Assembly (NCBI GenBank): GCA_023137005.1
Contig: JAGLQE010000201.1
Coordinates: 1-17,985 of the forward strand
Length of the DNA: 17,985 nucleotides
Source: Thermoplasmata archaeon
GTDB lineage: Archaea; Thermoplasmatota; Thermoplasmata; SG8-5; JAGLSY01
Direction of reading: 5' to 3'
The position numbers and the translations under genes are program-made. Positions within the stretch are counted from its first letter, which is position 1; each line of letters starts with the position of its first letter. A model generated the notes under the pieces. That model had not been told where the DNA came from, searched no databases, and was given only the letters and a program-made list of their open reading frames with translations. Positions 9,391 through 10,310 of this stretch are shown piece by piece.

Positions 9391-9483
9391 ATGTGCTCTG
9401 AGGAAGACTGTAGGATTTTTCGTGATAAGATATTAGCCTGCCAGCAATGCTGGTCATTCATGCAGGAGGAAATAGAAACCTAG
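9391..9483 (+). CDS. Possible 30-residue Cys-containing microprotein
   Basis: A 31-codon frame from ATG 9391 to TAG 9481-9483. The product starts MCSEEDCRIF and contains ACQQCWSF, giving four cysteines spaced C-x4-C-x9-C-x2-C, a spacing compatible with a small metal-binding knuckle, followed by an acidic helix-like end (MQEEIET). GGAG at 9378-9381 lies 9 bases before the ATG, and a TATA-like box sits at about 9344-9362. No family is recognised. Chance occurrence of a frame this short is easy, so the call rests on promoter, Shine-Dalgarno and cysteine pattern together. The same stretch forms hairpins (for example CCAGC-aat-GCTGG at about 9440-9452) and may instead be a structured RNA. Confidence 0.35.
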   Translation: MCSEEDCRIFRDKILACQQCWSFMQEEIET

Positions 9484-9684: not shown

Positions 9685-9719
9685 AAAAAAAAGGGTGAGG
9701 TTGGGTTGTACCCAACCTC
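9685..9719 (-). terminator. Intrinsic terminator of the minus-strand small-ORF operon
   Basis: A perfect 9-bp stem, GAGGTTGGG (9697-9705) with CCCAACCTC (9711-9719) and a 5-base loop. Read on the minus strand it is followed closely by eight T (complement of A 9685-9692). It lies about 24 bases past the stop of the last small ORF. This is the clearest terminator in the window and strong evidence for minus-strand transcription here. Confidence 0.85.
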
Positions 9720-9742
9720 GTGGGGGAAGAGTAATCGTGATA

Positions 9743-9892
9743 TTATCGGGGGAGCTTGGCTCCACCATTCTCCTCAAGGAACTTCTGAAAGTCGTCCTGT
9801 ATAGAAGAGATCTGTTTTTCCATTCTTGCCAGTCTGCAATTGATGCATTGACAGAATTCTTCCTCTATGATATCTCCCTCACCGTACATCAT
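9743..9892 (-). CDS. Small protein 3 of 3 (49 aa), CxCxxC motif, unknown function
   Basis: Begins MMYGEGDIIEEEF, then the triple-cysteine motif CQCINC (residues 14-19), then a predicted amphipathic helix (LARMEKQISSIQDDFQKFL) and a short tail. The cysteines could bind metal, perhaps as a dimer since only three are present; this is inference. The ATG at 9892 overlaps the stop of small protein 2 (ATGA), and GGAGGA at 9899-9904 lies 6 bases upstream, so translation is coupled. The intrinsic terminator follows. I recognise no family. Confidence 0.72.
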   Translation of the reverse strand: MMYGEGDIIEEEFCQCINCRLARMEKQISSIQDDFQKFLEENGGAKLPR

Positions 9893-10065
9893 AGTGAATC
9901 CTCCAGGTCCTGGTTAATGGGTTTCCAGCGCATGGCACTTGTGCCATCCATCTTGGACATAAGCCATTTATTGTTGCCGGCATAGATCTCATTGACAATG
10001 CCCAGGCTGGTTTGGAGCATTATCGTATCGCTCTTGTCCTTCCTGTTCAACTTTATAGCTGCCAT
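9889..10065 (-). CDS. Small protein 2 of 3 (58 aa), unknown function
   Basis: Starts MAAIKLNRKDKSDTIMLQTS, followed by LGIVNEIYAGNNKWLMSKMD and an end MRWKPINQDLEDSL. It is soluble, has mixed charge, no cysteines and no membrane segment. GGTGGT at 10074-10079 is 8 bases before the ATG; the gene follows small protein 1 after 18 bases and overlaps small protein 3 by four. A 7-bp inverted repeat, ATGGCAC-tt-GTGCCAT, lies inside the gene (9932-9947). I recognise no family. The plus-strand open frame over the same region has no binding site and is judged a shadow. Confidence 0.7.
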   Translation of the reverse strand: MAAIKLNRKDKSDTIMLQTSLGIVNEIYAGNNKWLMSKMDGTSAMRWKPINQDLEDSL

Positions 10066-10083
10066 ATTTTTCTACCACCACAA

Positions 10084-10221
10084 TTATTGTTTTGATTCCA
10101 TGATCTTCAATGCGTTCTTCAAACATTCAACGAAATCATCGTTGTAACATTCGTCATTTCTGGAAGTCTCTACAGTGGTGGTTCTCACTTTTTCCATCTG
10201 CGGTCTTTCTCTGTAGAGCAT
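10084..10221 (-). CDS. Small protein 1 of 3 (45 aa), unknown function
   Basis: First gene of the minus-strand unit: MLYRERPQMEKVRTTTVETS, then RNDECYNDDFVECLKNALKI and MESKQ. The second half looks helical, with two cysteines (C25 and C33). The Shine-Dalgarno AGGTGA (10227-10232) is 5 bases before the ATG, a near-ideal arrangement. Upstream lie three phased repeats and TATA-like sequences. It is followed after 18 bases by small protein 2. No relative is recognised; co-expression with two further tiny proteins suggests a small complex or regulatory module, which is inference. Confidence 0.7.
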   Translation of the reverse strand: MLYRERPQMEKVRTTTVETSRNDECYNDDFVECLKNALKIMESKQ

Positions 10222-10232
10222 TTTATTCACCT

Positions 10233-10265
10233 CATACGTTCTGCATACATTTTGTATACAATGAC
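10233..10265 (-). promoter_or_regulatory. Three direct repeats with 11-bp period, probable operator
   Basis: On the plus strand, CATACGTTCTG (10233-10243), CATACATTTTG (10244-10254) and TATACAATGAC (10255-10265) are head-to-tail copies sharing ATAC at positions 10234, 10245 and 10256, exactly 11 bases apart. One helical turn per unit would place bound proteins on one face. They lie between the presumed TATA box and the first small-ORF Shine-Dalgarno, so binding would block the transcription start. Confidence 0.5.
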
Positions 10266-10275
10266 ATTCTTTTGG

Positions 10276-10310
10276 AGGTATATATACCTTCCCCCTAGGG
10301 GTATTTAAAG
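10276..10310 (-). promoter_or_regulatory. Promoter region of small-ORF operon with palindromes
   Basis: Contains a perfect 14-nt palindrome AGGTATATATACCT (10276-10289), a second palindrome CCCCTAGGGG (10292-10301), and on the minus strand CTTTAAATACC (complement of 10300-10310), a good archaeal TATA box. Either TATA-like element could direct minus-strand transcription; starts would fall near 10255 or 10280. The palindromes may be repressor sites. Confidence 0.5.

Follow-up and report, generated by a model that had tools for sequence, protein, structure and literature searches.

Very small archaeal proteins with cysteine residues, such as the P3 protein of the three-gene unit (P1–P3) analyzed here, include the CPxCG-related small zinc finger proteins, among them Brz of Halobacterium salinarum and, reportedly, HVO_0758 of Haloferax volcanii. 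According to the report on Brz, its loss lowers the bop mRNA of the adjacent gene, and the group is defined by two Cys/His patterns (two residues with 2–3 between them) located 7–40 residues apart, at least one being of the form CPxCG, CPxCx or CxxCG (PMC2253796). The study on Haloferax volcanii states that 12 of 16 such deletion mutants could be told from the wild type under one or more of four conditions, which included swarming and biofilm formation (PMC6562870). With respect to control, TrpY of Methanothermobacter is described as a repressor acting on boxes in its own promoter region (PMC6737238), and this archaeal arrangement is similar to the feedback proposed below for P3. The small-molecule-binding domains HNOB, V4R and DUF2378 enter the comparison through proteins of paralogous P3 units, one homologue of which lies above the HNOB cut-off. 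Toxin–antitoxin operons consist of tiny adjoining genes with tandem near-palindromes at the promoter, and the P1–P3 unit is similar to them in both respects.

The window, that is, the whole stretch of 17,985 nucleotides analyzed, belongs to an archaeal draft genome (G000; 2.0 Mb, 459 contigs, 79% complete), and the genomes compared with it are likewise incomplete drafts. The minus strand of its secY–pheS interval carries three small frames, P1, P2 and P3 (Table 1), and their location between a ribosomal operon and pheS, as given in a preliminary description of this DNA, is correct in that SecY and PheS flank the unit, a ribosomal protein operon ends with secY, and S4e, S8, L6, L18, S5, L30 and L15 are encoded further upstream of secY. 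The three minus-strand frames of 45, 58 and 49 codons noted there are present, the overlap of genes 2 and 3 as ATGA is true in the window, and the appearance of a complete unit is borne out by a promoter-like site, repeats and a terminator-like hairpin of its own around three tiny genes. A Shine-Dalgarno sequence at 5–8 bases had been claimed for all three genes; this holds for P1 (GAGGTG, 6 nt) and P3 (GGAGG, 7 nt), but P2 has a weaker GGTGG at 9 nt. Phased repeats upstream were also found, with a period of 11 and a degenerate third copy, and downstream both the hairpin and T8 are there, the number of pairs being 10 instead of 9. The cysteines noted in P1 and P3 proved to be one in P1 and a cluster in P3, followed by a heptad helix in the AlphaFold model.

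Table 1. Features of the P1–P3 unit in the window
Feature	Position	Strand	Remarks
P1, 45 aa	10084..10221	-	single Cys within F-[VM]-x-C-L-x-N
P2, 58 aa	9889..10065	-	convincing matches confined to family f1
P3, 49 aa	9743..9892	-	CQCINCRLARME then heptad helix; ATGA overlap with P2
TATA-box-like core TATATATA	10279..10286	-	picked by eye
Operator-like tandem repeat, 11-bp steps	10228..10260	-	TGTATACAAAA / TGTATGCAGAA / CGTATGAGGTG
Untranslated 18-nt element GATTACTCTTCCCCCACG	9719..9736	-	between P3 stop and hairpin
Terminator-like hairpin, 10 bp	9697..9719	-	first base = last base of 18-nt element
T8 run 3' of hairpin	9685..9692	-	

Frame length alone proves nothing, because a total of 133 ORFs of at least 40 aa are present in the window. 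The GTDB family of the window, f1, was sampled by three genomes, G000 and its relatives G001 and G002, and in both relatives P1, P2 and P3 recur between secY and pheS in identical order and orientation, so that the refuting condition named in the preliminary description, a lack of conservation in close relatives, does not apply. The identities to the window in G001 and G002 are 75 and 56% for P1, 76 and 59% for P2, and 80 and 49% for P3. Between the window and G001, the differences at the three codon positions are 7/6/12 (P1), 7/6/21 (P2) and 9/3/25 (P3), and dN/dS, proposed as a check in the preliminary description, is 0.13/0.82 = 0.16 for P1 and 0.145/0.72 = 0.20 for P2; dN of P3 is 0.12, its dS being not computable. 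In the comparisons with G002, dS was not computable in four of six cases and was 2.1 and 4.4 in the other two. The ATGA overlap of P2 and P3 is kept in G001; G002 lacks a P3 ATG at the P2 overlap, and its P3 may start at the overlapping CTG codon or at an ATG further up inside P2. The frames go beyond chance because of the same order in both relatives and the distribution of differences over codon positions, and as judged from these comparisons they are real genes under purifying selection in close relatives. The preliminary observation as a whole, covering frames, signals and conservation, is thus confirmed.

A fourth tiny Cys frame, MCSEEDCRIFRDKILACQQCWSFMQEEIET, was observed at 9391-9483 (+), downstream of secY and convergent with the P1–P3 operon. 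Its arrangement C-x4-C-x9-C-x2-C is also present in G001 and G002. For its 28 codons, dN/dS is 0.23/3.2 between the window and G001 and 0.42/0.56 between G001 and G002, and because of the latter value selection on this frame is less clear than for P1–P3.

As the preliminary description had supposed, P1–P3 match no known family above the cut-off in Pfam, NCBIfam or PADLOC; PHROGs gave two weak matches, both to families of unknown function. A collection of 5.8 billion proteins yielded 13 matches to P2 (window's own included) and 25 to P3 at E<=0.01, and 18 to P1 (window's own included) at E<=0.1, and a Pfam domain was absent from all of these matches. By profile search, 19 P3 matches were found in 10 of 400 genomes of the class (E<=0.01), the marginal member being G103 (E 0.008); the others belong to five GTDB families, f1, f2, f14, f17 and f25, and a single genome can have as many as four copies. 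The core C-[NQ]-C-I-N-C-R-L-[AS]-R-M-E is common to 26 aligned P3 sequences, and distant copies vary in this core, for instance CNCIYCRMARME and CDCLQCRLTRIE. Three Cys are invariant in 26/26 aligned proteins, P3 has Cys at positions 14, 16 and 19 only, and neither a second conserved Cys/His pair nor a conserved His was seen among the 26. P3 is thus similar to the CPxCG proteins in size and Cys content but falls outside their definition, because it has a single C-x-C-x2-C cluster without the second pair and reads CINCR at the place of the CPxCG, CPxCx or CxxCG form; it differs also in its long heptad helix. The existence of an unnamed Thermoplasmata family of tiny Cys-bearing proteins is well supported, and neither this family nor the tandem repeat described below appears in the titles and abstract starts listed in searches of open-licence PMC papers.

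AlphaFold gave for P3 one confident helix at residues 17–42 (mean pLDDT 77, pTM 0.48), with pLDDT 95 for residues 21–30 and 92 for residues 31–40. Because the hydrophobic residues of this helix, L21, M24, I28, I31, F35 and F38, follow a 3-4-3-4 spacing, P3 is predicted to form a coiled-coil dimer. All four matches of P3 in the PDB sequence search had E values of at least 0.12, and both of those inspected align on the heptad helix. Since each chain has three conserved Cys and no conserved His, P3 might carry a site for metal or redox that is completed by a second chain; the proposal of the P1 Cys, which is invariant across 17 aligned sequences, as the fourth ligand is a guess.

P1 and P2 are narrower in distribution. 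Convincing matches to P1 were found in three of 150 genomes, all within f1, with two further genomes at E 0.01 and 0.03, and those to P2 in three of 200 genomes, again f1 only, eight further genomes giving E values of 0.002 to 0.07. A P2 search of 61 whole genomes gave good matches in three, the window's own included and all f1; a fourth match (G024, E 0.004) was taken as chance because of two internal stops. The structure model of P2 is poor (pLDDT 54), and the PDB sequence search with P2 gave no match. The restriction of P1 to the f1 locus has one exception, a P1-like frame at a paralogous unit of G000.

Genome G000 carries two more copies of P3, P3' on contig C167 and P3'' on contig C257. 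On C167 the order is the P1-like frame, a gene for a 267-aa protein overlapping this frame as ATGA, P3', and a HAMP/4HB protein, and divergent from the P3' unit are a winged-helix gene, a response regulator and, as we take it from reading, a PAS-like gene. The P1-like frame was the only other match (E=0.10) of a P1 profile built without it; its assignment would be weak alone, but it falls directly ahead of the P3' unit. On C257, a 262-aa protein and P3'' are located on the same strand at the upstream end of a che cluster encoding an MCP, cheW, a response regulator, cheB, cheA, cheC, cheD and cheR. Just as P3 overlaps P2 in the window, P3' and P3'' each overlap or abut the sensor-like gene at its end. 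The 262-aa and 267-aa proteins, 46% identical to each other, gave no Pfam match above the cut-off and no HNOB match in G000; their homologue in G022 (L099) passed the HNOB gathering score of 25.5 bits with 35.9 bits, and four shorter relatives have matches to DUF2378 or V4R below the cut-off. P2 differs from these proteins: that it might be what remains of the sensor-like 267-aa protein had been considered, but profile comparison found no similarity.

Some further observations were made at these loci. The N-terminal domain of the 267/262-aa proteins (L063 2599-1796, L064 3900-3112) also exists as a free protein of 79 aa (L174 1424-1185), which adjoins cheD and has no Pfam family above the cut-off. 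A 58-aa ribbon-helix-helix-like frame (L064 4126-3950), with RHH_1 and NikA-like matches below the cut-off, precedes the 262-aa gene. In family f17, the P3 copy of G026 is near a PAS-DUF835 protein and that of G036 near what we read as a PAS-like protein. One P3 copy of G023 (L069 2519-2673) lies at a contig end directly after a ZnuA-type gene, a possible link to zinc, and is preceded by two further genes, which we read as those of an ABC ATPase and a permease. Other neighbors of P3 are, by our reading, rpiA, trpS and dfp, ribosomal L16, dCTP deaminase and a STAND-like ATPase.

The repeat ahead of P1 in the window consists of two TGYATRCA near-palindromes 11 bp apart and a degenerate third unit, which includes the P1 Shine-Dalgarno site. 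Between TATA box and ATG, all three f1 genomes have retained TGTATACAAAA-nGTATGCAnAA-nGTATGAGG, while much of the surrounding sequence differs. A 16-base tandem pattern was found exactly once in each of G000, G001 and G002, at the operon promoter; with one mismatch allowed, G000 and G002 each gave one more site, which does not exceed the reversed control (1 and 2 in G000 and G002, 1 in G003). Upstream stretches were read at 16 P3 loci (17 starts), and outside f1 the 11-bp tandem was found in G090 and G096 (f25, TGCATACAAAA twice) and at one of the four G023 copies (f14). Units 1 and 2 fit the self-complementary TGYATRCA with at most one mismatch at all six repeat loci; unit 3 is degenerate at five of them (f1 and f25) and fits in G023 only. 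The first unit begins 21–27 bp downstream of the first base of the TATA core, as picked by eye, in the six genomes (26 bp in the window), and the archaeal transcription start is expected at about this position. In f25 (L076, L077), a short frame of 23 and 29 codons, M-x-MAL-x-IWRKYEKGGE..., is located between the repeat and P3, at the position of P1; it has its own ribosome-site-like sequence and overlaps the P3 start.

When 400 whole genomes were scanned with a degenerate 19-base pattern, matches were obtained in six, solely at the six P3-family loci, and its reversed control gave no match in the 400. As the pattern was written after these sites had been seen, the positives are by construction; no other place in the 400 genomes, many of them incomplete, carries the 19-base tandem pattern. 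A 22-mer made from the window only was compared with 1.15 million positions (both strands of loci that overlap and are enriched for P3 loci), and at least 17 of 22 bases matched only at these P3 loci. The repeat thus looks like an operator private to P3-family genes, a restriction that sets it apart from the TRP boxes of TrpY. Among the 16 loci read, the six with the repeat are those with the core CINCR[LM]ARME, the other ten differing in this core, and no regulator gene common to the six was seen in ORF lists, with neighbors partly searched against Pfam. Feedback by P3 or its complex would then be the simplest reading; the alternative is an unlinked regulator with this single target.

The reading preferred here is that P1–P3 are an operon of micro-proteins that one Thermoplasmata family has inherited vertically, with P3 as an adaptor, a role in sensory relay and feedback control; this joint explanation is given a probability of roughly 0.4. 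P3 would form a coiled-coil dimer, with a metal-binding CxCxxC knuckle as its cap, and would act as a small adaptor of the protein whose gene lies directly upstream, P2 in the window. P1 would be a second accessory subunit that may complete a four-Cys site with P3, and P2 an f1-specific replacement of the sensor subunit, its translation probably coupled to that of P3 through the ATGA overlap. The P1–P2–P3 complex would most likely relay or tune a sensory signal, because in paralogous units an HNOB/V4R-like sensor precedes P3 and chemotaxis-type receptors are near. A regulator, most simply the P3-containing complex, would bind the 11-bp-phased TGYATRCA sites, which start at the expected transcription start, and shut the promoter, this feedback setting the level of the complex. 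The role of the unit as an autoregulated signaling adaptor complex is thus inferred, but family and repeat are well supported. The 'multi-subunit complex' or 'regulator' considered in the preliminary description fits, as far as gene contexts indicate, with the signaling surroundings of the P3 paralogues, and its interpretation as a whole is partly supported.

Several findings stand against this adaptor and feedback model. The net charge of the 26 aligned P3 proteins is -5 to +2, near neutral or acidic, which argues against P3 contacting DNA alone; the P1-like frame was found independently at E=0.10 only; and P2, for which the model is poor, is without similarity to the sensor-like proteins. 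The repeat is missing at 13 of the 19 P3 matches, including both G000 paralogues (10 by reading the upstream DNA, three by the strict 19-base pattern alone), its third unit is degenerate at five of six loci, and its leaders can also form weak RNA hairpins. Unrelated genes, which we read as rpiA, trpS or dCTP deaminase, adjoin many P3 copies, and the ATGA overlap is lost in G002.

The P3 family may instead consist of cytosolic metal or redox sensors, in which the Cys knuckle reads zinc or oxidation state for a small stress regulon without any chemosensory link. The three invariant Cys of P3, the one of P1 and the ZnuA-type, ABC ATPase and permease genes read before one G023 copy at a contig end are in favor of such a function, but a zinc-transporter neighborhood is found at only one of the 16 P3 loci read and both G000 paralogues have che or HAMP genes as neighbors, and this explanation is thus regarded as unlikely, although it deserves serious attention. 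Rather doubtful is a stronger version of the feedback, in which P3 would be the founder of a new class of autoregulatory DNA-binding micro-proteins: a metal-bound coiled-coil dimer with a Cys3 knuckle would recognize the TGYATRCA palindromes of its own promoter, one per helical turn, and P1 and P2 would be added subunits tying the repressor to a signal.

At the 3' end of the unit, the hairpin (-17.4 kcal/mol, z -3.85) is replaced in G002 by one of different sequence and similar shape, and the C-rich 18-nt element ahead of it is identical in the three f1 genomes. Its 14-nt core occurs exactly in one copy each in G000, G001 and G002 and not in G003. The element was also considered as a general terminator signal, and this was rejected, matches with up to two mismatches (9–17 per genome) being below the reversed control (16–30). 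Possible roles of the 18-nt element are the seed of a 3'-UTR small RNA and a site for a regulator. Control might be exerted by RNA, a repeat hairpin at the mRNA start hiding the P1 ribosome site, perhaps together with the 18-nt element. In six genomes, the repeats are located from the expected start site onward and the leaders fold at -6 to -12 kcal/mol, and the exact conservation of the 3' element would agree with such a switch; tandem palindromes, however, fold by construction, z is only -1.82 for the window leader, the 11-bp spacing is about one turn of DNA, and the pairing differs between families, a difference that is not decisive. Such an RNA switch is considered improbable.

The preliminary description had also proposed an inserted selfish cassette or a toxin–antitoxin set, here between secY and pheS. 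The small size of the genes, their close arrangement and a palindromic repeat resembling one for autoregulation are in line with this idea, as is the presence in the sister family f3 of a 251–255-aa gene beside pheS instead of the unit at five loci (L081-L084, L088) of the ten listed, the pheS-adjoining stretch being not clear at the other five. However, the unit occupies the same place in 3/3 f1 genomes with vertical-like divergence, no described toxin, antitoxin or defence family was matched in Pfam, NCBIfam or PADLOC, and searches of viral contigs with P2 and P3, of phages with P3 and of plasmids with P2 gave no relative. P1–P3 also differ from toxin–antitoxin operons in showing no sign of mobility and in that P3 is retained in other families for which no convincing P1 or P2 was seen. 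This proposal is not supported and is regarded as very improbable. Although frames of this length are common in the window, the comparison made with G001 and G002 refutes chance open frames in an intergenic spacer, because gene order and signals are conserved, lengths are nearly equal and the differences follow a codon-position pattern; this explanation can practically be dismissed.

Few parts of archaeal genomes are as poorly annotated as small proteins, and the 26 closest members of the P3 family share a nearly invariant 12-residue signature. With this signature, a private cis element and paralogues beside chemosensory genes, the function of the P3 family can be tested directly by means of short synthetic DNA and three proteins of under 60 residues.
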